Part shown: positions 26,104-41,475 of the stretch, in pieces
How the letters are laid out: the number at the start of each line of letters is the position of its first letter
Numbering within the stretch: the stretch's first letter is position 1
IMG/VR virus record: IMGVR_UViG_3300046449_000160
Span: 1-43,727 of that record
Length of the DNA stretch: 43,727 bases
Reading direction: 5' to 3' (one strand)
Origin: a virus
The notes under the pieces: model-generated
Seen by the model: only the letters and a program-made list of their open reading frames with translations
Told to the model about the DNA's origin: nothing
Database searches by the model: none
Position numbers and translations under genes: made by a program

Positions 26104-26507
26104 TGAAATACTACAAAAAGCAAGGCGAAGTATGGGCGTTCGAGTCCGATGGTTCTCAAGATCACTTGATTACTGAAGATTTCACAGAGATGACCGGGGC
26201 AGAGCTTGAGGATCATTTAAGCACTGTTAATGCAAAAACCGCAAAACAGATACGCGATGATGCCTTAGCTTCACTGGTTCACGATTTTGGTGACGGTCGA
26301 GTCATTCAGATCAGACAAGGCGCGGATGAGTCAAATATTCGTAACGCTATTGAGCGAATGGAACGTCTTGATTCAGATTCTGAGCAATGGCTTATGGTAG
26401 ACAACAAGTTCTATTCAGTAAGCAAATCAGATTTAGAAATTGCGTTGCAATCAGGACAAGATCAGGTTGCACAGATTTGGAGTGATTATGCAGAAGTATC
26501 ATCTTAG
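26103..26507 (+). CDS. Fibre-associated protein with DUF4376-like C-terminus
   Basis: 134 residues from the ATG at 26103, on the TAATG overlap; the longer frame from 26085 starts inside the fibre gene. The N-terminus MKYYKKQGEVWAFESDGSQ resembles phage fibre-associated proteins. The second half (AKQIRDDALASLVHDFGDGR and onward) reads like the DUF4376 domain found in tail fibre proteins and fibre chaperones. It overlaps the endolysin start. It probably helps fold or attach the fibre; that is inference. Confidence 0.65.
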   Translation: MKYYKKQGEVWAFESDGSQDHLITEDFTEMTGAELEDHLSTVNAKTAKQIRDDALASLVHDFGDGRVIQIRQGADESNIRNAIERMERLDSDSEQWLMVDNKFYSVSKSDLEIALQSGQDQVAQIWSDYAEVSS

Positions 26508-26862
26508 CAAGAGAAGCCTATCACGTCTTGATGGGGTTGATGGCGATCTGGTTCGAGTGGTTAAAAGAGCTATTCAACTCACTGAAGTAGATTTTACTGT
26601 GCTTGAAGGTCTTAGGTCTGAAGAGCGACAGAGAGAGTTGTACGAAAAAGGCGCATCTCAGACAATGAATAGCCGACACTTGATCGGTCAAGCTGTAGAT
26701 TTAGGCGCTTATGTTGACGGAAGAGTTGAGTGGTCATGGCCACTGTATTACAAAATAGCAGAAGCAATGAAAAAAGCGGCTGAAGAGTTAGGTGTTCGCA
26801 TCACATGGGGTGGCGAATGGGAAACTTTTAAAGACGGGCCTCATTTTCAGGTGGAGCATTAA
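26488..26862 (+). CDS. Endolysin, M15-family D-Ala/L-Ala-D-Glu peptidase
   Basis: 124 residues. It cuts the peptide stems of peptidoglycan at lysis. The zinc peptidase signature SRHLIGQAVDLG lies at about residues 60-71 and the C-terminal GPHFQVEH supplies the last zinc ligand region; LEGLRSEERQRELYEKG is the usual preceding helix. I chose ATG 26488, preceded by GGAG, over the open frame from 26440. There is no signal peptide, so it needs a holin, and one is encoded two bases downstream. Confidence 0.9.
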   Translation: MQKYHLSKRSLSRLDGVDGDLVRVVKRAIQLTEVDFTVLEGLRSEERQRELYEKGASQTMNSRHLIGQAVDLGAYVDGRVEWSWPLYYKIAEAMKKAAEELGVRITWGGEWETFKDGPHFQVEH

Positions 26863-26864
26863 TT

Positions 26865-27230
26865 ATGTTTAGTTTTCTAAGTAAATTATTCGGGTCTGGA
26901 ATTGTTGGTTCAATTGAGCGCATAGCAAGTGAAGCCATAGAAACAGACAAAGAGTCTGCAGAAGCTAAAGCGCTATTTATTAAGACTCTCGACCCCAACG
27001 GGCAAATGCGGAGAGATCTATCGCGCTTTGCGTGCCTCTCTTACGGGTTTTATTTGGTATCCACTACTATATTGATAATGTTTCATTCGTTTGGTGTAGG
27101 CGATACTGAGCAGTCTAAAACAGCTATTGAAGCAATGACTGGTTTATTTATGCCAATTACTACAGCATGGGGGACTATTGTTACTGCATCATTTGGGGTA
27201 AATGCAACAAACACAATAAAACGTGGGTAG
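26865..27230 (+). CDS. Holin of the three-transmembrane (GTA_holin_3TM) type
   Basis: 121 residues. A possible short amphipathic start is followed by NGQMRRDLSRFACLSYGFYL, a sequence typical of the 3TM holin family, then hydrophobic segments at about residues 56-74 and 88-113. It follows the M15 endolysin by two bases, the standard lysis pair. It should make the membrane hole that releases endolysin. It is the last gene of the late operon and a terminator follows. Confidence 0.8.
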   Translation: MFSFLSKLFGSGIVGSIERIASEAIETDKESAEAKALFIKTLDPNGQMRRDLSRFACLSYGFYLVSTTILIMFHSFGVGDTEQSKTAIEAMTGLFMPITTAWGTIVTASFGVNATNTIKRG

Positions 27231-27305
27231 TTGCATCGAATAAAAAGTGTGGTATATTTAAATCTCTCTCACTTAACTTTCTTAATCTCCTAGTTAAGCT
27301 CCTTT

Positions 27306-27542: not shown

Positions 27543-27604
27543 GTATAACACTACGTTCATCGGTACAGCTCGTAACCTCGCAGACGTTGAACTTCTTGTT
27601 ATAC
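27543..27604 (-). other. attC-like integron site A
   Basis: Bounded by perfect inverted boxes GTATAAC and GTTATAC, 62 bases. Inside, GTTCATCG and CGTTGAAC pair with one mismatch. The stop codon of the gene at 27599-27784 is the TAA inside the box, as in compact gene cassettes. The first 52 bases are identical to site E 4 kb away. The inner stem is weaker than in sites B, F, G and J. Confidence 0.7.
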
Positions 27605-27784
27605 AGCTTTACCGAACTGCCGATAGTTAAACTCCAAGTAATCCCCGCTTTTGGTAGTCGTTGTGCGAGAAAAGCCATTACTGGCCATCACTTTATCGAT
27701 TTCCTTTTCAATTCCCTGAATCAAGCATATTTTGCAGTCATTCAGTCCATTCTCTGTTTTCACCTTAACTGTTTTAATGCACAT
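27599..27784 (-). CDS. Cassette gene, small protein of unknown function
   Basis: 61 residues, basic, with two Cys in the N-terminal NDCKICLIQG and a C-terminal SGDYLEFNYRQFGKAV. AGGTAAAAAAC precedes the ATG. Its TAA stop lies inside the R'' box of attC A, so gene and site form one unit. It shares a cassette with the gene 12 bases upstream. No family recognised. Confidence 0.6.
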   Translation of the reverse strand: MCIKTVKVKTENGLNDCKICLIQGIEKEIDKVMASNGFSRTTTTKSGDYLEFNYRQFGKAV

Positions 27785-27796
27785 GTTTTTTACCTG

Positions 27797-27994
27797 TCAT
27801 CTTGTATATGGGTTGTATCCAAGCGCTCCAGCATGTGCCAGCTTACGCTGTGAATCCGTCATATTTCGCCAGCGGCGGCGGCCTTCACGGAACTTGTTGA
27901 TGATGCGCAGCTCTCCGAGAGTTGGCGGCCCCATCTGTTTCCTAATCTCAGGTATCATCTTTTTTCGGGCATATTCTGGATTTTTAATCGTCAT
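27797..27994 (-). CDS. Cassette gene, small basic protein
   Basis: 65 residues, very basic (RKKMIPEIRKQMGPPTLGEL, then FREGRRRWRNMTDSQRK). It has AGCGAGGTTTGAT before the ATG. It sits between attC B and the next gene, first of two genes in a 465-base cassette. The basic, Arg-rich sequence could bind nucleic acid, but I have no family match. Confidence 0.6.
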   Translation of the reverse strand: MTIKNPEYARKKMIPEIRKQMGPPTLGELRIINKFREGRRRWRNMTDSQRKLAHAGALGYNPYTR

Positions 27995-28007
27995 ATCAAA
28001 CCTCGCT

Positions 28008-28072
28008 GTATAACAATTCGGTAGAGGCGATGACCCTCGTTACACTCGGGCCGCTCACCTCAAGGGTTATGT
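28008..28072 (-). other. attC-like integron site B
   Basis: Read on the minus strand, ACATAAC...GTTATAC, 65 bases. GGTGAGCG pairs with CGCCTCTACC if two bases of the right arm are left unpaired, the kind of extrahelical base that gives attC its strand polarity. An inner CCC/GGG stem closes the loop. The TAA stop of gene 28067-28288 is part of the box. Confidence 0.8.
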
Positions 28073-28288
28073 GTTGTTAAGCCTCGTTAAAGCTGGAAGT
28101 AAATCACTTCCGTATTTATTAATAAATTCTTCAAGCTTCATCCATTTATCTCTTTTATTGCCATATTCATCAACATAGTTAGGGTAAATCTTTTCTGGTC
28201 TCTCAGAGTCAGTAATAACCATCACACCAGTTATCGAGATGACTTTTTCCTTTTTATTGAGAACTTCGTCATACATTACAAATGGCAC
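28067..28288 (-). CDS. Cassette gene, small protein of unknown function
   Basis: 73 residues if it starts at GTG 28286-28288, which has GGAGG eight bases before it; an ATG at 28303 gives 78 residues but no ribosome site. The sequence PFVMYDEVLNKKEKVISITG followed by charged residues suggests a small soluble fold. The stop is inside attC B. It shares a 457-base cassette with the 43-residue gene upstream. Confidence 0.6.
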   Translation of the reverse strand: MPFVMYDEVLNKKEKVISITGVMVITDSERPEKIYPNYVDEYGNKRDKWMKLEEFINKYGSDLLPALTRLNNT

Positions 28289-28306
28289 TTCTCTAACCTC
28301 CATGCA

Positions 28307-28438
28307 CTACACATTAATATAAACTCTTAAATAAAACTCTTTTATACTCATTTCTGCTAACCCATTACATTCACTATCTCTATACTGTGTAAAATCAATA
28401 TAAAGTTTTAGAAGCTCGTCACTACTCAAATGTTCCAT
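28307..28438 (-). CDS. Very small cassette protein
   Basis: 43 residues starting MEHLSSDELLKLYIDFTQ, from the ATG at 28436-28438, which has GGTGAAGTT before it. An ATG at 28450 would add four residues. The acidic helical start resembles short phage proteins with 'LSDEELL.LY..F'. It stops four bases before the next ATG at 28303. Short, but with plausible codon use and a ribosome site. Confidence 0.5.
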   Translation of the reverse strand: MEHLSSDELLKLYIDFTQYRDSECNGLAEMSIKEFYLRVYINV

Positions 28439-28464
28439 AACTTCACCCATATTGAATTAAAAAC

Positions 28465-28493
28465 ACATAACAAGGCAATCAATCCGACTGCTC
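28465..28493 (-). other. Half attC-like site C
   Basis: On the minus strand GAGCAGTCGGATTGATTGC leads to an intact R' box GTTATGT. The same half (with one or two changes) is found in site D. The matching R'' half is missing; the adjoining bases run into A/T-rich sequence. It looks like the remnant of a site after deletion or recombination. Confidence 0.5.
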
Positions 28494-28537
28494 TTTATAA
28501 ACATTCTACTACCATAGACATCTAGCTCCATTAGACC

Positions 28538-28723
28538 TTAGTCTACTAGCTGCCAAAGCTCTTGGTATACAACCGCGAGCTCTCCCAGAACGTCCTGAAT
28601 ATGATCATTAACACCACCTTTAACTATCGCCGGATGATCAGCCAGAAGGCTTTGCACCATCTCTGATATGATCAGCGTTCTATCAAGGGCCTCGCTTATG
28701 TGGCCTTCGTTGAGCTCACTCAT
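28538..28723 (-). CDS. Small helical protein downstream of ninG
   Basis: 61 residues, acidic and helical (ISEALDRTLIISEMVQSLLA, then IQDVLGELAVVYQELWQLVD). GAGAGGATAGGTGAGTT precedes the ATG, which overlaps the NinG stop (ATGA). It belongs to the resident early operon rather than to a cassette, since no attC box touches its stop. Family not recognised. Confidence 0.6.
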   Translation of the reverse strand: MSELNEGHISEALDRTLIISEMVQSLLADHPAIVKGGVNDHIQDVLGELAVVYQELWQLVD

Positions 28724-29133
28724 AACTCACCTATCCTCTCTCTGTGATACTTGATTAGACCATTAATCTCTGCTAAAAACTCTTCATAATCAGCTTTGTA
28801 CATCTTCTTAACTTTCTTCGTTGTATCGTGCATGTGTTCTACAAAGTCGCGCCCGTACATGTCGATCATCCACAAAGTATAGAGTGACTCAGCGTTTCCA
28901 TATTTCATGCCAAACCCGTTGCATGATTTGCATTGTGGGTGGATGTTTGCAGGATCTAGGGCCCAGTACGAGCTTTTACCTTTCGCTATGTAATGGCCGC
29001 CGTCCATTTCTTTATAGTGCTGCGTCGTTCCGCAAGAGGCACACTGTGAATATCCGTTATCATCCGCGGCAGCTATCCTTGCTAGCAATTGAGCTGCTTC
29101 TAAACATTTAGCTCTTAGTGTTTTCTTTGCCAT
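28720..29133 (-). CDS. ninG: NinG-like recombination protein (Rap family)
   Basis: 137 residues. Lambda NinG/Rap acts on recombination intermediates such as D-loops and Holliday junctions. Here MAKKTLRAKCLEAAQLLARI is the family start. CASCG near residue 32 and HPQCKSCN near 65 form the zinc-binding pairs, with DGGHYIAKGKSSYWALDPAN between them as the NinG hallmark. It is shorter than lambda NinG (204 residues), lacking N-terminal sequence. AAGGTGATGAA before the ATG supplies the ribosome site and follows a terminator-like hairpin. Confidence 0.85.
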   Translation of the reverse strand: MAKKTLRAKCLEAAQLLARIAAADDNGYSQCASCGTTQHYKEMDGGHYIAKGKSSYWALDPANIHPQCKSCNGFGMKYGNAESLYTLWMIDMYGRDFVEHMHDTTKKVKKMYKADYEEFLAEINGLIKYHRERIGEL

Positions 29134-29144
29134 TTCATCACCTT

Positions 29145-29164
29145 AAAAGGCGGGTTTCCCCGCC
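29145..29164 (-). terminator. Minus-strand hairpin with GAAA loop between ssb and ninG
   Basis: On the minus strand GGCGGG-GAAA-CCCGCC runs into TTTT, then AAGG, which is the ninG ribosome site. It should act as an intrinsic terminator or attenuator inside the operon, reducing ninG below ssb. Confidence 0.7.
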
Positions 29165-29172
29165 GTGGTTAG

Positions 29173-29700
29173 CTAGAAAGGAGGCTGGTTATCAATCATG
29201 TATCCGCCATCAATCAGAGCTTTATCTGTCCAGCCCATCTTAATATAGTCTTCACGACTGAAACCTTCTGCTTTATCAGTCATCACGTACTGTTCAGAAG
29301 GCGCTTGTGGCATACCTGGCGCTTTAGGTGATTGCGGAGCTGATTGCTGAGGAGATGGGCTTGCTGAAGCTTGAGGCGAATCACTGTATGAAACAAACCC
29401 AATGCTTGCGTCAATAATCTCAATTGATAGGTGAGTATCGCCTGAGTTTGAAATAAACTGTTTTATTTTCTGCTGCTTGCCTGAAACTTCGACAATTGCC
29501 CCCTCCACCAACGCCTGTCGATAGAAATCAATCTGTGCCGGAGCCTTTGCAAACACTACAAATTCATAGTTGGTCCACTCGTTAGATTTAGTTTCGCGAT
29601 CATAATAGCGCTCGCCTAGTCTAAGACCAAAACCAACACTTTCACCGGCCTGAAATTCATTCGCTGCCTTTGTTAACTTTCCGGTTATTGCTACAGTCAT
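29173..29700 (-). CDS. ssb: Single-stranded DNA-binding protein
   Basis: 175 residues. The OB-fold part runs to about residue 105 (AVAITGKLTKAANEF-like start, then YEFVVFAKAPAQIDFYRQAL and VEVSGKQQKIKQF). A flexible Pro/Gln/Ser-rich linker (about 115-145) follows. The tail ends IDNQPPF rather than the DDDIPF of bacterial SSB, so contacts with host repair proteins may be altered. It overlaps NinB by four bases. It protects single-stranded DNA during replication and annealing, together with Erf and NinB. Confidence 0.8.
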   Translation of the reverse strand: MTVAITGKLTKAANEFQAGESVGFGLRLGERYYDRETKSNEWTNYEFVVFAKAPAQIDFYRQALVEGAIVEVSGKQQKIKQFISNSGDTHLSIEIIDASIGFVSYSDSPQASASPSPQQSAPQSPKAPGMPQAPSEQYVMTDKAEGFSREDYIKMGWTDKALIDGGYMIDNQPPF

Positions 29701-30038
29701 TGTTGTGCCTCTTTATACTCGTTGTATTGATCCAATGCAGGATCGGGAAAAATTACGCCTCTCTCAGTACCGAACCAGTATGTATATTCGATTACTTCGT
29801 TAAGCTCTTGTTTGCTCATTTTTGAAGTTTTTCTACCTAGCGCAACTAATCCATCACCGTCTACGTTAGGAACTACTCTCTGGCCTCTTATAGCGGCTGT
29901 GAACAGATCTTTGTAGTCATGGTCAGACATATCATTGCCATGCCACAGTGGGCGCTGTTGTGCTATAACGCCTAGTAGCTTCCACATGAGGCGGTTTTGC
30001 TGCACGGTGCGTTTGTCGCTAGGTGGTTTATTGCTCAT
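29697..30038 (-). CDS. ninB: NinB-like recombination protein
   Basis: 113 residues. KRTVQQNRLMWKLLGVIAQQ near the start and LVALGRKTSKMSKQELNEVI in the second half are the NinB (Orf) signature; NinB is a recombination mediator that binds single-stranded DNA and helps load annealing proteins. It is a little shorter than lambda NinB (146 residues). The start overlaps the stop of the gene upstream by 11 bases. The cluster ninB-ssb-ninG with erf in the other arm is a coherent recombination set. Confidence 0.85.
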   Translation of the reverse strand: MSNKPPSDKRTVQQNRLMWKLLGVIAQQRPLWHGNDMSDHDYKDLFTAAIRGQRVVPNVDGDGLVALGRKTSKMSKQELNEVIEYTYWFGTERGVIFPDPALDQYNEYKEAQQ

Positions 30039-30345
30039 ACTTTTTCTTCAGCTGTTCAAGCTTATTAAGCTCCATAAATTTTTCAATCTCAGCTATTTTT
30101 TGTGCTTTGAATTCACGCTCTTTAATCTCATCTTCTGTCTCGGGCCGCTTGTAGTAGATCTCTATTGATGTTACAGGGCAATCTCCGTATCCAGGCAGTA
30201 TATCTATAGTTGCTGACTCTCTAAACTCCTCAGGAATTGATGAGATTTTTTCGTTAAACCACTCAATAAATTCAAACGCATTATCTGAAGGCCAGTCTTT
30301 CCCTTCATACTTATCATTTCTAAACACCTCAACTATTATGTCCAT
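30028..30345 (-). CDS. Conserved small phage protein upstream of ninB
   Basis: 105 residues, acidic start (IVEVFRNDKYEGKDWPSDNA), Glu/Ile-rich middle and a Lys/Glu coiled C-terminus (EIEKFMELNKLEQLKKKYE). GGAGATAAGAGA precedes the ATG. It is the first gene of the resident core block and overlaps ninB. Not recognised beyond being typical early phage accessory content. Confidence 0.6.
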   Translation of the reverse strand: MDIIVEVFRNDKYEGKDWPSDNAFEFIEWFNEKISSIPEEFRESATIDILPGYGDCPVTSIEIYYKRPETEDEIKEREFKAQKIAEIEKFMELNKLEQLKKKYEQ

Positions 30346-30356
30346 TCTCTTATCTC

Positions 30357-30545
30357 CTATATTCTACTAATATCAAACGTAAAGCTTTTTGCATTCTTCC
30401 TGCATACAATAACGCACTCCTTGTATATACTGCGCTCTTTGTACCGGCTTCCTGCAACTACAAAGCCTTTCTTCATTATCCGTGAGATCTCCTGTATCAC
30501 GCATAAATCATTTAATCCGCTATGGTTGTTTATTATAATTTTCAT
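30357..30545 (-). CDS. Small basic protein
   Basis: 62 residues, Ile/Lys/Arg-rich (ISRIMKKGFVVAGSRYKERS) with two Cys (DLCVIQEI, YKECVIVCRK gives three in all). The start is the ATG after CGGAAACCAACT, a weak ribosome site. It lies directly downstream of one copy of the 14-base motif. Family not recognised. Confidence 0.55.
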   Translation of the reverse strand: MKIIINNHSGLNDLCVIQEISRIMKKGFVVAGSRYKERSIYKECVIVCRKNAKSFTFDISRI

Positions 30546-30558
30546 AGTTGGTTTCCGA

Positions 30559-30572
30559 TATTAGACGTTGGT
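30559..30572 (-). repeat. 14-base boundary motif, copy 1
   Basis: ACCAACGTCTAATA on the minus strand, two bases after the TAA of gene 30574-30774 and 14 bases before the next ATG. One of four copies in the window; see 31586, 39624 and 40026. Confidence 0.75.
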
Positions 30573-30573
30573 A

Positions 30574-30774
30574 TTATACGTACTGAGCCATTTTATAACC
30601 TCTATGATATTCAGCAACCTTATCGCCTTTATCTGTAAAAAGTAGCGCCCAGCATATTTCGTCATTTCCTTCATGCTCTTTTTTCATATCTTCGTTGAAA
30701 TGATCTTTTGTTTCGTAATCGCGTTGATAATTAAATCCGCGATAATTGTGTTGTATGCTTGTTAACATTTTCAT
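30574..30774 (-). CDS. Small protein of unknown function
   Basis: 66 residues from ATG 30774, chosen because ACGAGGAAT precedes it; the longer frame starts inside attC D. MLTSIQHNYRGFNYQRDYET is followed by a charged region and ALLFTDKGDKVAEYHRGYKM. The stop is followed two bases later by the boundary motif. It would be the cassette downstream of attC D, but its own attC is not visible. Confidence 0.6.
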   Translation of the reverse strand: MKMLTSIQHNYRGFNYQRDYETKDHFNEDMKKEHEGNDEICWALLFTDKGDKVAEYHRGYKMAQYV

Positions 30775-30792
30775 ATTCCTCGTAGTTTGTAC

Positions 30793-30854
30793 GTATAACA
30801 AAGCAATCAATCAGACTGCTCGTTGATCTCGCGCGTTTTATCGCGTGGTTATTG
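30793..30854 (-). other. attC-like site D (atypical)
   Basis: Minus strand CAATAAC...GTTATAC, 62 bases. The R' half equals that of half site C (GAGCAGTCTGATTGATTGC), but the R'' half does not pair well with it; a separate CGCG-ATAAAA-CGCG hairpin fills the other side. It may be a hybrid of two sites. Confidence 0.45.
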
Positions 30855-30858
30855 AGAG

Positions 30859-31083
30859 CTACAACAGCTCTACTTTGATGTATCTAATTGCTCCGTGCCA
30901 TGGGCCGATTACACATCCCTTTCTGATATAGCTTATTTCAAGCTTTGCACGCCGTCTGTTTCTATATATTCCACAGCAGGCACCGTATTCGCCACCAAAT
31001 AGAACAAACCATTTATTATTTGCGGTCTTTGATATACCCCACCCGCGCCAGATTTCTTTATATTTCATCGCTGTATCCGCCAT
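30859..31083 (-). CDS. Cassette gene, small basic Trp/Cys-rich protein
   Basis: 74 residues from ATG 31083; a later ATG gives MKYKEIWRGWGISKTANNKW with 69 residues. GEYGACCGIYRNRRRAKLEI contains a Cys pair and a very basic stretch. Its TAG stop is five bases before attC D. It is the last of three genes between attC E and D. I do not know the family; it may bind nucleic acid. Confidence 0.55.
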   Translation of the reverse strand: MADTAMKYKEIWRGWGISKTANNKWFVLFGGEYGACCGIYRNRRRAKLEISYIRKGCVIGPWHGAIRYIKVELL

Positions 31084-31092
31084 CAATAAAAA

Positions 31093-31305
31093 TTATACCA
31101 ATACAATAGTTAGTACAAAAATCACCTCAGCCGCTCCTGATAACACCATTCCAAGGATCCCAGCCATTCGAAACCCATACGCCGAGCCTTCGCCTACATA
31201 CTTCTCAATCCATCCCTCGTACACCTGTGAAGACATATAAACAACTAGCGATAACATTGCTAGCATGAACATTACGTACATCCCCCAGGTTAGCAAATCA
31301 CTCAT
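31093..31305 (-). CDS. Small membrane protein with two transmembrane segments
   Basis: 70 residues from ATG 31305, preceded by GAGGGAGAAGAAG; a longer frame from 31338 overlaps the previous gene. Hydrophobic segments YVMFMLAMLSLVVYMSS (about 9-25) and GMVLSGAAEVIFVLTIVLV (about 51-69) flank a short polar loop. It overlaps the upstream gene by eight bases. A role in the cell envelope is likely but unspecified. Confidence 0.6.
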   Translation of the reverse strand: MSDLLTWGMYVMFMLAMLSLVVYMSSQVYEGWIEKYVGEGSAYGFRMAGILGMVLSGAAEVIFVLTIVLV

Positions 31306-31540
31306 CTTCTTCTCCCTCCACGTGCCACTCAAGCTCATTGAAGATAGTGTTTATTTCGTCTTCTGTTGAGTGTCTGAATATGTGCGCTCCGAATACATAA
31401 TACGGGTTGCTTACGCTATCAACTGTTATCTGAATCACAAGCCCGAATGAAACAAGCGCCCGATACTGGCCGTTGTTATTGATATGAATAGCCGTCTCTA
31501 CTAGATCAGCCATAAGGTCTTTGATTTCTTCGTCTGTCAT
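31298..31540 (-). CDS. Small acidic protein of unknown function
   Basis: 80 residues, acidic, with LMADLVETAIHINNNGQYRA and FGLVIQITVDSVSNPYYVFG. The ATG has the strong site AGGAGATTAAA, a ribosome-site form that recurs throughout both early arms. It is the first gene after the boundary motif and attC E. Confidence 0.6.
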   Translation of the reverse strand: MTDEEIKDLMADLVETAIHINNNGQYRALVSFGLVIQITVDSVSNPYYVFGAHIFRHSTEDEINTIFNELEWHVEGEEDE

Positions 31541-31585
31541 TTTAATCTCCTTTTTGTGTAGTTTATTCTTATCTGGCTAATATTG

Positions 31586-31599
31586 TATTAGACGTTGGT
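31586..31599 (-). repeat. 14-base boundary motif, copy 2
   Basis: ACCAACGTCTAATA on the minus strand, overlapping the end of attC E (GTTATACCAACG). Copies 1 and 2 bracket about 1.0 kb with four genes and attC D. Confidence 0.75.
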
Positions 31600-31659
31600 A
31601 TAACACTACGTTCATCGGTACAGCTCGTAACCTCGCAGACGTTGAACTACCTGTTATGC
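31598..31659 (-). other. attC-like integron site E
   Basis: Boxes GTATAAC and GTTATGC (plus strand), 62 bases, identical to site A over the first 52 bases. The stem GTTCATCG/CGTTGAAC is conserved. It follows the Gp49-family gene by 26 bases. Confidence 0.7.
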
Positions 31660-31684
31660 GCCCTATGTAAGCAGCGCAATCTGA

Positions 31685-31981
31685 TTAGGCTGCTAACTTA
31701 TCTTTCAGCAAGTAACCTTCCAGCGCCCAAATTTTATTGCGAGCATTTTCGCGGGCAATCTTTCGCCCAATCTCTGCGTCAAAGTTTTCAGGGCTGGCAC
31801 ACGCACTCTCACCAGTTACAGTAAAACCATTCTGCAAAGTAAGGCAGCAGACCGTCAGGCACGTTTTTTCAAATACGTGGTAGTCCTCTTCGGCAATGGT
31901 CGCGTCAATATGTTCAGGTGTAATGCGTGGCGCATTAAGGTTTTTCTGGTTAATTTCTTTTTCAATATCAGCTTCGCTCAT
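31685..31981 (-). CDS. Gp49/Sf6 gp66-family phage protein in a cassette
   Basis: 98 residues. The C-terminal two thirds, NGFTVTGESACASPENFDAE followed by IGRKIARENARNKIWALEGY, is the clear signature of the Gp49 family (phage N4 gp49, Sf6 gene 66), a widespread small phage protein of unknown function. PRITPEHIDATI begins the domain. GGAGCTAAACGCT precedes the ATG. It is bounded by attC F upstream and attC E downstream, making a 412-base single-gene cassette. Confidence 0.85.
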   Translation of the reverse strand: MSEADIEKEINQKNLNAPRITPEHIDATIAEEDYHVFEKTCLTVCCLTLQNGFTVTGESACASPENFDAEIGRKIARENARNKIWALEGYLLKDKLAA

Positions 31982-32009
31982 AGCGTTTAGCTCCGTAGTT
32001 AATTAAAGC

Positions 32010-32078
32010 GCATAACAAAGGGTTGTACTGGACTCACTACGCTGCGCTTCGTTCGCGCAGTAAGCCCAAAGGTTATGC
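32010..32078 (-). other. attC-like integron site F
   Basis: GCATAAC...GTTATGC, perfect inverted boxes, 69 bases. GGGCTTACTG pairs with CAGTACAACCC leaving an extra base, and CTGCGC/GCGCAG closes an apical hairpin. The loop sequence is shared with site G. This is a textbook attC layout. Confidence 0.88.
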
Positions 32079-32102
32079 GCCCCGTGCTGGCAGCGCAAAT
32101 TT

Positions 32103-32369
32103 CTAAATTCGAGTATAACCACCATCAAAAGCTGCCGAAGGACTCCATGACTTGTAACCGTCCTCGTAAACCACGTAGTAGCCCGGATCGTTTTCATCAC
32201 CCTTAAACCGCTCCCCAAAGTCTGGAGCTGTTGTAAAAACGGCGAAACCTTGATCAGCCGGGGCAATAGTTACCGATCCGTCTTTGTTTACCTCAGCGGC
32301 TGCAATTTTCAGTGCATGAACTGTTTTGTGGCTTCGGTATTTTGGCATTTCCATCTGTACGTCATTCAT
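32103..32369 (-). CDS. Conserved small phage protein in a cassette
   Basis: 88 residues. MPKYRSHKTVHALKIAAAEV and the C-terminal PGYYVVYEDGYKSWSPSAAF match a small conserved protein I know from many phage and prophage genomes, with no assigned function. Start options are ATG 32369 or MPKYRS, eight codons later. It is flanked by attC G upstream and attC F downstream as a single-gene cassette of about 394 bases. Confidence 0.75.
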   Translation of the reverse strand: MNDVQMEMPKYRSHKTVHALKIAAAEVNKDGSVTIAPADQGFAVFTTAPDFGERFKGDENDPGYYVVYEDGYKSWSPSAAFDGGYTRI

Positions 32370-32403
32370 AACTTCAATCTCCGCGCCTAGTTAGTTGATC
32401 AGC

Positions 32404-32471
32404 GCATAACAACTAGCTGCACTGGACTCACTACGCTGGCGCTCGTTCGCGCAGTGAGCTTGGGGTTATTT
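32404..32471 (-). other. attC-like integron site G
   Basis: Minus strand AAATAAC...GTTATGC, 68 bases. AAGCTCACTG pairs with CAGTGCAGCT leaving an extra G. The loop GCGCGAACGAGCGCC with GTAGTGAGTCC is nearly the same as in site F. The TAA of the gene at 32466-32693 lies in the box. Confidence 0.85.
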
Positions 32472-32693
32472 TGGAGCGCTTAATCCGCAAAGTTTAGCGA
32501 CATCCTCTCCCCACTCCTCAACGATATTTGGTATATCAATGCCATAGTTGTCTTTTATATGATGCTTGGCGACTTGGTGAATTTCTGCAAGCGTGGGGCT
32601 GTTTGAATCAACAAAACCTGCTTCTAGCGCGCCAATCATTAAGTTAACAAAATTCTTTACTGCATCGGCCTTTATTTCGTCAATATCAAACAT
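32466..32693 (-). CDS. Cassette gene, small acidic protein
   Basis: 75 residues. FDIDEIKADAVKNFVNLMIG is helical; the C-terminus IVEEWGEDVAKLCGLSAPK is followed by a stop embedded in attC G. GGGAGATAGAAAGAAA precedes the ATG. It is the first cassette gene of the left arm in transcription order. Family not recognised. Confidence 0.65.
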   Translation of the reverse strand: MFDIDEIKADAVKNFVNLMIGALEAGFVDSNSPTLAEIHQVAKHHIKDNYGIDIPNIVEEWGEDVAKLCGLSAPK

Positions 32694-34428: not shown

Positions 34429-34578
34429 GTATACTTGCATTGCAACAATTACCCTCTATAGCTGGATTGTGGCAATCAGTATTAGTTTAACACAGTATCT
34501 ATCATTATTTCACTTCTCCTCTTGCGTTAGCTCTAGCGATGATATAAACTGTATTCATCAACTAAGGAGATTAACGAA

Positions 34579-34788
34579 ATGACTACTACAGTAAAAGAAA
34601 TTGAAATTGACAGCAATGAAAACAAATGGTTTGAAATTTCAGGTATGGATTATGGTACGGGCATTGATTTTGGTGACTCAGAAGTTTTTGGTGTTACGTG
34701 TGATGGAGTGATCATGGATTGTGATGGTTTCCCAATCACTAATGGTGATTATTTAGATGTTGCAGTTAAAAACGCATTGAATATTTAA
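34579..34788 (+). CDS. Small acidic protein of unknown function
   Basis: 69 residues, very acidic (IEIDSNENKWFEISGMDYGT, then GIDFGDSEVFGVTCDGVIMD). AAGGAGATTAACGAA gives a strong start. A weak CCCC/GGGG hairpin at 34797-34812 follows. Strong acidity in a small early phage protein can suggest a DNA mimic, but nothing more supports that. Confidence 0.65.
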   Translation: MTTTVKEIEIDSNENKWFEISGMDYGTGIDFGDSEVFGVTCDGVIMDCDGFPITNGDYLDVAVKNALNI

Positions 34789-38018: not shown

Positions 38019-39623
38019 ATGAATGAAGTAGCAAAAACAACGGGTGTTGTGCATTTTAGTGAGTTCTTCGCGCCGATATCGCCGGATCTAATCGCGTCAC
38101 TACTAAAACAATATGGCGATAAACTTAATAGTATCAAATCTGTCGCTGAATATATGGAATCTCCAGGCGTTTCAAGTGCAGTGTCGTATTTCGTAACGGC
38201 AGATAGAAAGAAACACTCTGATCGTAGTCATTATAATTTAGAGTTTGATGTTAGTGCTGCAACAGCTGTGCTTGATTCTGAATTCTGGCAGAAAGCGCTT
38301 AATTTAACCGACGTTTACGATCACATGCCGCAGGATAGAAGGAGTGATTGGAGCGAAATGATCAGAGATTGTAAATGTGTTTCGTTTGAGTCTGACACAG
38401 TGTACAGCACTATTGAGAGCCTACTAAACAGTAGGGCTCAATTTTTAGCTGAGCGCGTTGACGGCATGTTTAGATCGCTATCGGGTGAGCATGTAACCAA
38501 TTCACCTTCTGGGTTCAACAAACGAATGATTATTGCTGGCGCTATTGATCACCTCGACCTAGTTAGTTGGAAAGTTTCCGGACATCTTGATGACCTTAGA
38601 AAAGTTATATCTAAATTTCTAGGGCATGAAGAGTGCGGATTTGGCACAACAAGTGATGCTCTCTATGCAATGAAACGCTGCTATGGTGAATGGGTAGAGT
38701 GGGACGGAGGCTCGATTAGAGCAAAGCTGTACATGAAGGGAACCGTTCATCTTGAGATCCATCCGGATGTTGCATGGAAGCTAAACGAGATACTCGCGTA
38801 CATTTACCCGCGATCATTAAGCGCTAGTAGCCTGAAAAAACCAACGCGCAAATCAAAAGTGTTTAATCATATTAAGCGACCTATCCCAGGTCGTGTGCTG
38901 AATGCATTAAGCGAGTGCGTTAAATACGGTTTAGGCCAAAAGATTAAAATAGATTGGCGGCTAGATAAGGAGATGGAAGAGCAAGTTATTAATTTGCTTG
39001 AATCTATCGGTGGTGTTCGTTCAACGTATGAGTATAAATTTGATCGATACGGTAGTGAGTCTAAAACATTTCCGGCTGTTGATTTCGATTACTACCCAGG
39101 CGAGGCCATCTCTCATATTATCTGCTCTGGGGTATTGCCTGACCAGAAGTCGCACCAGTTCTACCCAACGCCGCAAGGATTAGCAGAAGAGGCGGCACAA
39201 TGGTGTGAGATTGGCGATAACGATTCAGTACTAGAACCGTCGGCAGGTCAGGGTGGGTTAGCGTCATATGTAAACCCAAACAACCTAACGTGCGTTGAGA
39301 TTTCAGAGCTACACTGTGAAATACTAAAGTCTAAAAACATGAAGGCAATTTGTGCTGATTTCCTAGACTGGGCACCGAATCACCAGCAAGAGTTCGACAG
39401 AGTTTTGATGAACCCTCCTTTTTCAGATGGTCGTGCTATTCGACACCTAGAAGCTGCGGCTGAATGCCTAAAATCTAAAGGAATACTGGTCGCTATATTG
39501 CCGTCATCATTTAAAGATAAACCATTTATGACTGGCTATTCGGTTCAGTACTCAGATATTAAAAATAACATGTTTGTTGATGCGTCGGTGAATGTTGTTC
39601 TAATGAAGATAATTAAAGATTAG
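38019..39623 (+). CDS. DUF4942 / class I SAM-dependent DNA methyltransferase
   Basis: 534 residues from ATG 38019, preceded by AGGAGAATAAGA; the frame from 37980 lacks a signal. The N-terminal 290 residues match phage DUF4942 proteins (YNLEFDVSAATAVLDSEFWQ, KRMIIAGAIDHLDLVSWKVS). SHQFYPTPQGLAEEAAQW leads into the methyltransferase domain: motif I EPSAGQGG at about 405-412 and the adenine-type motif IV NPPF at about 465-468. It probably methylates phage DNA at adenine to avoid host restriction. No partner nuclease is seen. Its TAG stop touches a boundary motif. Confidence 0.85.
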   Translation: MNEVAKTTGVVHFSEFFAPISPDLIASLLKQYGDKLNSIKSVAEYMESPGVSSAVSYFVTADRKKHSDRSHYNLEFDVSAATAVLDSEFWQKALNLTDVYDHMPQDRRSDWSEMIRDCKCVSFESDTVYSTIESLLNSRAQFLAERVDGMFRSLSGEHVTNSPSGFNKRMIIAGAIDHLDLVSWKVSGHLDDLRKVISKFLGHEECGFGTTSDALYAMKRCYGEWVEWDGGSIRAKLYMKGTVHLEIHPDVAWKLNEILAYIYPRSLSASSLKKPTRKSKVFNHIKRPIPGRVLNALSECVKYGLGQKIKIDWRLDKEMEEQVINLLESIGGVRSTYEYKFDRYGSESKTFPAVDFDYYPGEAISHIICSGVLPDQKSHQFYPTPQGLAEEAAQWCEIGDNDSVLEPSAGQGGLASYVNPNNLTCVEISELHCEILKSKNMKAICADFLDWAPNHQQEFDRVLMNPPFSDGRAIRHLEAAAECLKSKGILVAILPSSFKDKPFMTGYSVQYSDIKNNMFVDASVNVVLMKIIKD

Positions 39624-39640
39624 ACCAACGTCTAATACCG
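39624..39640 (+). repeat. 17-base boundary repeat, copy 3 of the motif
   Basis: ACCAACGTCTAATACCG directly after the methyltransferase stop. It is identical over 17 bases to 40026-40042. The two copies enclose the attC I - gene - attC J cassette, 402 bases start to start. Confidence 0.85.
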
Positions 39641-39665
39641 ATAGTGATCTGGGTGGCGTATAATT

Positions 39666-39728
39666 AAATAACACTTTTATTAAACGGATGGAGCGAAGCG
39701 GAATTCCGCTTTGAATTACTTGTTATGA
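39666..39728 (+). other. attC-like integron site I
   Basis: AAATAAC...GTTATGA, 63 bases. TATTAAACGGAT pairs with AATTCCGCTTTGAATTA leaving several extra bases, with GGAGCGAAGCGG in the loop. The ATG of the next gene lies inside the R' box. Confidence 0.75.
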
Positions 39729-39946
39729 ATACTTGGCCAGACGGACAGCGCAGAGCAATGACTCAAAGCGAGCATGAACACTGGAACGCAAACAATTACC
39801 CCGGAACTCTGCAATTATGTTGCCAGTGTGACGGTGAAACAGGGCGCTGTGAAGAGGATGAGATTTATATAGATGATGGCGAAACTGGGCCGCTGTGTGA
39901 AGATTGTTATCACAATAGCGAAGAATACAAAGCTCAGGATTCATAA
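39725..39946 (+). CDS. Cassette-borne small Cys-rich protein
   Basis: 73 residues. CCQCDGETGRCEEDEIYID and GPLCEDCYHNSEEY give a four- or five-cysteine zinc-knuckle pattern; NNYPGTLQL precedes it. I know similar small proteins from phages and prophages, without function. The ATG sits inside the attC I R' box and has no ribosome site; MTQSEHEHW, 12 codons in, is an alternative start. The TAA is part of the attC J box. So gene and sites are fitted to each other. Confidence 0.75.
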   Translation: MNTWPDGQRRAMTQSEHEHWNANNYPGTLQLCCQCDGETGRCEEDEIYIDDGETGPLCEDCYHNSEEYKAQDS

Positions 39947-39996
39947 CATCTGTATTAATAGGGCGCTTGCGTCCCTATTTAATCTAAGTGTTATCA
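39941..39996 (+). other. attC-like integron site J
   Basis: TCATAAC...GTTATCA, 56 bases. ATTAATAGGG pairs with CCCTATTTAAT leaving one extra base, over a CGCTTGCG loop. TAA of the gene is inside the R'' box. The shape could be mistaken for a terminator but there is no T run. Confidence 0.82.
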
Positions 39997-40025: not shown

Positions 40026-40042
40026 ACCAACGTCTAATACCG
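40026..40042 (+). repeat. 17-base boundary repeat, copy 4 of the motif
   Basis: ACCAACGTCTAATACCG, identical to 39624-39640, located 30 bases after attC J and 46 bases before the next ATG. Confidence 0.85.
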
Positions 40043-40088
40043 CAACATGCAAATATATTTATAATTAAGCAAAAAAGGAGATTAAGAG

Positions 40089-40785: not shown

Positions 40786-41475
40786 ATGAGCATCGTATTA
40801 TTTAACGACATAACAACAGAAGAAACGCTAAGACAGCTAGAAGTCACTGGCGAGAAATATAAAGACCTCTACGTTGATATGAACGAGAAGGAACAGCGTA
40901 AATACGTCAAAGACTCAGCCAGCGTTATCAATGATATGCTTAAAAAGCTTGAGCGTGCGCGTATTGATAAATCTAAAGAATATAAAGCCAGAGTTGAGGC
41001 TGAGGCTAAGTCAATTCGTGAGCGATTACAAGCAGCTAACGAGCCGTTCACTGCATTGATTGATGCGTACAATATTGAGCGTAAAAAAATACTCGATGCT
41101 AAAAAAGCAAAAGAGGATGCTATTGAGTTAGCAAGACTTATCGAGTCCGACCACGAAATTGCGTTAATTATCAACACTCAATGGGATAACGACAAAGAAA
41201 AACGTGAAGCTGAGCGGAAAGCAGCACAAGAGGCGCACGATAAAGAAGTGTCAGAACGTGCTATACAAGCTGAGAAAGCGCGAATTGAAGCTGAAGAAAA
41301 GAGAAAAGAGGCTGAACGCATTATTCGTGAGTCAGATATTGAGAATAAGCGAGCCGTAAACAATGCGGCGGTTGAATCGTTAATGTCAGCTGCGGACATT
41401 GATTACGATACAGCGGTTAATGTTATCAAGGCGATAGCTAAAAAACAGGTCGCTAACGTATTTATTCAATATTAA
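40786..41475 (+). CDS. Coiled-coil early protein downstream of erf (DUF1351-like)
   Basis: 229 residues, mostly Glu/Lys/Ala/Arg helix. The first 90 residues (KYKDLYVDMNEKEQRKYVKD, ERARIDKSKEYKARVEAEAK) resemble phage DUF1351-type proteins that follow recombination genes. Residues 140-200 form a long charged coil (KAAQEAHDKEVSERAIQAEK). The C-terminus ends ADIDYDTAVNVIKAIAKKQV. GGAGATTAAA before the ATG. Probably assists the annealing protein; by analogy only. Confidence 0.65.
   Translation: MSIVLFNDITTEETLRQLEVTGEKYKDLYVDMNEKEQRKYVKDSASVINDMLKKLERARIDKSKEYKARVEAEAKSIRERLQAANEPFTALIDAYNIERKKILDAKKAKEDAIELARLIESDHEIALIINTQWDNDKEKREAERKAAQEAHDKEVSERAIQAEKARIEAEEKRKEAERIIRESDIENKRAVNNAAVESLMSAADIDYDTAVNVIKAIAKKQVANVFIQY

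Follow-up and report, generated by a model that had tools for sequence, protein, structure and literature searches.

The small genes in the early operons of a phage are separated by hairpin sequences that resemble attC, the recombination sites of integrons. This raises the question of whether these sequences are real attC sites and, if so, how genes enter and leave operons that are already transcribed by the phage itself. We followed this question in an IMG/VR virus record of 43.7 kb (IMGVR_UViG_3300046449_000160), which we call the window and which comprises all 43,727 nucleotides of the stretch analysed, and in further virus contigs that carry similar sites.

Gene layout of the phage and detection of attC sites

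The structural genes of the phage, among them terminase, head-tail adaptor, major head protein and tail protein, read rightward. A rightward operon encodes a helicase loader, a DNA methyltransferase and an Erf-like annealing protein, and the leftward operon, in which attC-like sites were first noticed, also encodes NinG, SSB and NinB. These three core genes separate groups of cassettes, as a preliminary description of this DNA had stated. The same description held that no integrase is encoded, and we likewise found neither IntI nor any other tyrosine recombinase (Pfam: PF00589) in the record, which is possibly incomplete. A complete integron consists of intI and attI; with no intI found in the record, the phage instead corresponds to a CALIN, a close group of two or more attC sites that lacks intI. 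NinB used as bait for viral relatives gave no matches and terminase did yield relatives. The phage and its 97% identical relative carry unrelated sequence at window positions 26500-27252 and L215 positions 315-1483, which are probably different lysis modules.

Reference attC sites came from 20 array regions that adjoin intI in gammaproteobacterial integrons, and the direction of intI set their top strand. From an alignment (A1) of 28 short, oriented chromosomal attC sites we built the covariance model R1; both this model and a dicodon-based gene caller were made for this analysis. The pairs in A1 covary, with a covariation score of 0.483 vs 0.125 in shuffles. On the reference arrays essentially all matches of R1 fall on the expected strand, the exceptions being a few weak echoes of strong sites.

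Six sites in the window have E < 0.05 (A, B, C, D, F and G, Table 1), four of which are in the left operon, and site E and the decayed site at 30793-30854 are below significance alone. Sites A and C are 95% identical to each other and site E is 79% identical to site D. The sites possess the R'' and R' boxes (RYYYAAC ... GTTRRRY), imperfectly paired inner arms and the directional signature of attC. In bottom-strand folding site D reaches a z of -3.5, and for sites A, B and C the folds are mostly not better than those of shuffled sequences, those of A and C being weak. The background of the model is low, with no match at E < 0.1 in 799 kb of bacterial gp49 loci and two matches at E < 2 in 658 kb of other virus loci, both in relatives that share a cassette gene with the phage. 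Rfam gave no match to the window. The covariance model confirms previously described sites of the leftward operon, where A to D are significant and E and the decayed site score lower; a half site at 28465 was recognised by eye. The two sites in the right operon had been missed.

Table 1. Sites, cassettes and core genes in the window (CM: covariance model R1)
Feature	Positions	Strand	Evidence and remarks
attC site A	27543-27604	+	CM 18.3 bits, E 0.008; crossover 27598/27599 = stop codon of gene 27599-27784 (-)
Cassette 1: genes 27599-27784 and 27797-27994, attC B as leader	27599-28066	-	crossover to crossover
attC site B	28008-28072	+	CM 30.0 bits, E 4.8e-6; crossover 28066/28067 = stop codon of gene 28067-28303 (-)
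Half attC, R'' and L'' only	28465-28495	+	by eye; resembles 5' half of 30793-30854
Core genes between cassette groups	28720-30038	-	NinG 28720-29133, SSB 29173-29700, NinB 29697-30038
Decayed attC, arms no longer pair, only 5' half intact	30793-30854	+	CM 12.3 bits, E 0.37
attC site C	31598-31659	+	CM 15.7 bits, E 0.04
Cassette 2: gp49_66 family gene 31685-31981 (Pfam: PF13876) and attC D	31654-32072	-	family and CM matches
attC site D	32010-32078	+	CM 18.4 bits, E 0.007
Cassette 3: gene 32103-32369 and attC E	32073-32465	-	CM match
attC site E	32404-32471	+	CM 10.5 bits, E 1.1; crossover 32465/32466 = stop codon of gene 32466-32693 (-)
attC site F, right operon, 5' leader of gene 39725-39946	39666-39728	-	CM 24.6 bits, E 1.5e-4
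Cassette 4: gene 39725-39946 and attC F; ATG in R'' box, TAA in next R' box	39672-39946	+	common to L317
attC site G, right operon	39941-39996	-	CM 16.0 bits, E 0.034; crossover 39946/39947 = stop codon of gene 39725-39946

Polarity and cassette anatomy

The top strands of attC are on the plus strand in the left operon, where the genes are on the minus strand, and on the minus strand in the right operon, where the genes are on the plus strand. All eight sites detected with the covariance model are antisense to both flanking genes. This contradicts the preliminary description, in which the sites read with transcription, and it sets the window apart from bacterial arrays, whose genes follow the attC direction. 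A single array inserted by chance in one direction is ruled out, because the two operons bear attC on opposite strands, each against its genes.

With this reversed polarity, the unit between two crossovers is composed of an attC hairpin, a leader and a gene. Four genes in the window end exactly at the G^TT crossover (27599, 28067, 32466 and 39946), and the coding strand therefore reads TAA^C there. Gene 39725-39946 begins with an ATG in the R'' box of its own attC (GTTATG) and terminates in the next R' box (TCATAAC).

Besides attC there are other repeated elements near the small genes. A 68-base leader (window 34518-34585 and L084 5045-5112, 96% identical) precedes two different small genes in the phage and in a 97% identical relative, and the contig of the relative ends at the place matching this leader, as if the leader were repeated. 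An insertion in the relative (L084 4186-5337), located between window positions 41475 and 41506, contains a gene resembling PAPS reductases; the 68-base leader precedes a further, small gene of this insertion. The motif ACCAACGTCTAATA, in coding orientation, is found near gene boundaries of both operons (30559-30580, 31580-31600, 39622-39645 and 40026-40045), and a gene of L084 (2112-2363) that is absent from the window ends beside one copy of it. Three other virus contigs (L316 5217-5600, L317 5220-5600 and L319 5265-5600) each repeat their own short ribosome-binding leader before successive small genes.

Cassette movement between viruses

Cassette 4 is found again in L317, a contig of 6.2 kb, with 80% DNA identity over 39675-39947 and no further DNA similarity to the window outside this cassette. 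Its attC, site F, is also present in L084, and in L317 the R' box of this site is lost. L316 shares the gene of cassette 4 alone (39713-39947), placed between two other attC-like sites. In both contigs the homology to the window ends at base 39947, which is the crossover. Another example is the pair of near-identical virus contigs L380 and L384, of which L380 carries one extra cassette, an attC together with a gene resembling HNH endonucleases by sequence, with GCCTAACGC at both junctions, within the core box. L365 and L413 likewise differ by cassettes. Crossover-bounded units of one gene and one attC are hence seen in 39672-39946 with L317, the last few bases excepted, and in L380/L384.

Gain and loss of genes by cassette exchange, as proposed earlier for this phage, is borne out by the right-operon cassette common to L317 and L316 and, in other viruses, by L380 vs L384. 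For this cassette and these other viruses the breaks fall at the crossover (L316, L317, L380/L384) and not away from the GTT boxes. As far as the data reach, neither background-level scores nor misplaced breaks, the two outcomes that the preliminary description had named as refuting it, were seen. The contig of G386, which is 97% identical to the phage, breaks off inside site A of the left array.

Survey of attC in other virus contigs

IMG/VR contigs are predicted viruses. Searching them with a gene-blind IUPAC attC pattern, which favours CGGA-type attC, gave at least 80 virus loci, and R1 has 275 matches on the virus loci listed. A longest-ORF gene caller gave mixed orientations, because in GC-rich contigs it often chose the wrong strand, and we used the dicodon caller in its place, whose calls in the window agree with the operons. 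With this caller and among the matches listed, 66 out of 78 contigs with attC are mostly antisense, nine are sense and three are tied. Counting only sites with both neighbours on one strand, again among the virus matches listed, 199 are antisense and 24 sense, in comparison to four antisense and 70 sense sites in chromosomal integrons (Fisher p 7e-42, for sites that are not independent). Near-duplicates in the survey (L339/L378, L350/L399, L341/L343, L380/L384 and L365/L413) leave the overall picture unchanged. Of the scored antisense gene ends near a crossover in the virus matches listed, 121 out of 349 have an offset of zero.

Named phages show both orientations. In H101 (GenBank: KR534323) attC is on the plus strand and the GenBank genes are on the minus strand at all four sites, two of which are mixed with the dicodon caller. 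The attC of TJE1 are sense to its genes, M16-3 has a canonical sense array adjoining intI, and some virus contigs also carry sense attC. Rctr41k (GenBank: KX853513) has weak, poor attC-like matches and an IntI-like gene co-directional with its neighbours. One attC, 91-98% identical and in sense orientation, is found in L345 (9194-9265), L346 (7370-7441) and L395 (12257-12324), and perhaps belongs to a host-type array.

Virus-borne intI loci

In two of the antisense survey contigs the array is followed at its downstream end by a gene for IntI, which is on the strand of the other genes. A scan of IMG/VR with an IntI alignment led to 80 viral IntI loci. In 50 of them attC is present, with 41 antisense, seven sense and two tied loci, or 137 antisense vs 15 sense sites. 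The attC are mostly located upstream of intI on the opposite strand, which is the canonical geometry, but the cassette genes form a single operon directed at intI. In 71 out of 72 viral loci the gene 5' of intI has the same strand as intI, vs 5 out of 22 bacterial ones. The attC of the viral IntI loci covary, with 0.506 vs 0.141 in shuffles, in an alignment fitted to R1. In the window the genes are antisense to attC and in these other virus contigs they are also co-directional with intI, which are the two parts of the viral reverse-read integron that we propose. It had been suggested earlier that the early promoter of the phage simply replaces the integron promoter Pc; this is unsupported, as the genes oppose attC and the viral operons read the cassettes toward intI.

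Among the large proteins of the viral IntI loci there are matches to terminase, portal, protease and tail families; the most frequent matches are to phage integrase families. The cassette genes include matches to DNA methylases, Mom, Lar and Dam, and most match nothing. In a quick-type integrase tree, with bacterial sampling from Gammaproteobacteria only, 41 viral integrases form one supported clade and most others fall into further virus-only clusters; a few, for example that of L481 with its sense array, group among the bacterial ones. The named-phage collection contained no integrase above 60% identity to viral IntI.

Many viral integron integrases (L459-L538) have a second integrase gene, of the ordinary phage type, next to them, a hint that these phages are temperate. 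In contig G443, the viral IntI (L456 1501-2442) has a four-residue gap and divergent residues where other integrases align well, and nonetheless abuts an antisense array of seven attC.

Comparison with known systems

Clusters of attC without intI, as in the window, are known from the CALIN phages TJE1, P12002L and PH101, and the attC bottom strands of three such phages recombine with IntI1, sites of PH101 and of TJE1 included (Qi et al. 2023, PMC9892861). The sites of PH101 (H101) are, by the R1 model, also antisense to the annotated genes, the same as in the window. The text of that study makes no mention of opposite gene and attC polarity. In comparison to these CALINs, the reversal described here extends over two divergent operons and, among the matches listed, most surveyed virus contigs, and is tied to virus-borne intI.

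The sedentary chromosomal integrons of Vibrio and other gammaproteobacterial arrays share with the viral arrays the attC structure, the G^TT crossover, the attC polarity away from intI and the gene-sized cassettes. The difference is in the genes, which in chromosomal integrons read with attC and away from intI; the genes of the viral arrays have the opposite direction in both respects. The reverse integron of Treponema denticola is described as having a reversed integrase gene, with stop codons located in the R box of attC as usual (PMC4909258). Its intI is transcribed in the cassette direction, as in the viral arrays; compared by description, the viral genes differ in being reversed relative to attC and upstream of intI. 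We found no description of viral reverse-read integrons in the papers searched, a set without preprints.

Interpretation and alternative explanations

The sequence comparisons point to a window with functional or recently functional attC and back-to-front cassettes, an integrase-less array (CALIN) over both divergent early operons whose reversal would come from virus-borne integrons. We give this reading a probability of roughly 0.78. Against it count the lack of any integrase in the record and of a donor integron among the genomes searched, the weak folds of A and C, the low scores of E and the decayed site, the sense attC of TJE1 and of some virus contigs, and a survey made mainly of other viruses. 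In each mobile unit, the attC hairpin would form the 5' leader of a gene that ends at or near the crossover. IntI, supplied in trans by a host integron or another virus, would act on the window sites by cutting at G^TT in the folded bottom strand of attC, in this phage the coding strand. Single genes would thereby be added to or removed from the early operon and would be driven by the operon's own promoters. Reliance on a host enzyme, as proposed earlier, is possible, and the integrase of a co-resident virus is an equal candidate. We searched for a donor integron with the attC family of the phage in 369 gammaproteobacterial genomes, and nothing scored above background. The gp49 gene was also considered as a bacterial integron cassette, and this was rejected with 70 bacterial gp49 loci that have no attC at E < 0.1.

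Furthermore, we consider it likely, with somewhat less assurance, that viruses carry their own lineages of reversed-reading integrons. In these, intI would be distal in a viral operon, and cassettes of anti-restriction genes and genes of no known function would be swapped 5' of intI and read in its direction, with a separate virus cassette pool that includes integrase-less phages. New cassettes would be inserted 5' of intI in the canonical attC polarity. Since the operon would continue through the array into intI, it could express only the genes that face intI, so that reverse-facing cassettes would be kept and would form a pool of their own.

The same attC might have been reversed by selection on the recombination rate, with the bottom strand placed on the lagging-strand template and on the strand opened by transcription, and the location of intI being secondary. 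Such a placement would favour folding of the bottom strand (PMC11023631) and speed up the movement of cassettes. For genes co-directional with the fork the lagging-strand template is the coding strand, and the divergence of the window operons would fit a putative origin between them. Moreover, inversion of the V. cholerae array, which puts the bottom strands on the lagging template, increases excision (PMC11023631). Selection on the rate alone, however, leaves the shared direction of intI and its upstream gene in 71 out of 72 viral loci unexplained, and we regard this reading as possible but rather doubtful. It is compatible with the explanation by intI operons and does not exclude it.

Two further readings were considered. 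The hairpins could be phage regulatory or shuffling leaders, either RNA elements or homology blocks, which merely resemble attC. In T4-type phages, mobile promoter stem-loop cassettes are hairpin-bearing leaders between small genes and are involved in gene shuffling; to our knowledge they lack attC boxes, IntI and a fixed crossover point. The hairpins of the window do sit in 5' leaders, repeated leaders precede small genes in L316, L317 and at window 34518-34585, and homologous pairing is conceivable between sites A and C, which are 95% identical. This is nevertheless very unlikely, since the R'' and R' boxes, the asymmetric L'' and L' arms and the GAC position fit the model made from integrase-flanked attC, the homology breaks at the crossover between sites of different sequence, and many similar arrays abut intI. 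Equally hard to sustain is the model of the preliminary description, namely ordinary bacterial cassettes that the phage took up via a host IntI and in which gene and attC have the usual orientation to each other. Host-type cassettes have a precedent in Vibrio and Shewanella prophages (PMC9892861) and would also fit the canonical sense array beside intI in M16-3. For the window we hold them to be most improbable, given that every detected site has the opposite polarity, that the gammaproteobacterial genomes had no matching attC and that the bacterial gp49 relatives are without attC.

Implications for phage and integron biology

The selectivity of the integrase for the bottom strand is regarded as a means of orienting captured genes for the Pc promoter (PMC11023631). 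A large set of virus integrons with almost all genes reversed, and read by an operon that runs to intI, would represent a second design that works. The reversal in viruses suggests a polarity barrier between the bacterial and the viral cassette pools. Viral reverse-read integrons would offer phages a site-specific way to swap single genes, for example those for DNA methylases, Mom or Lar.
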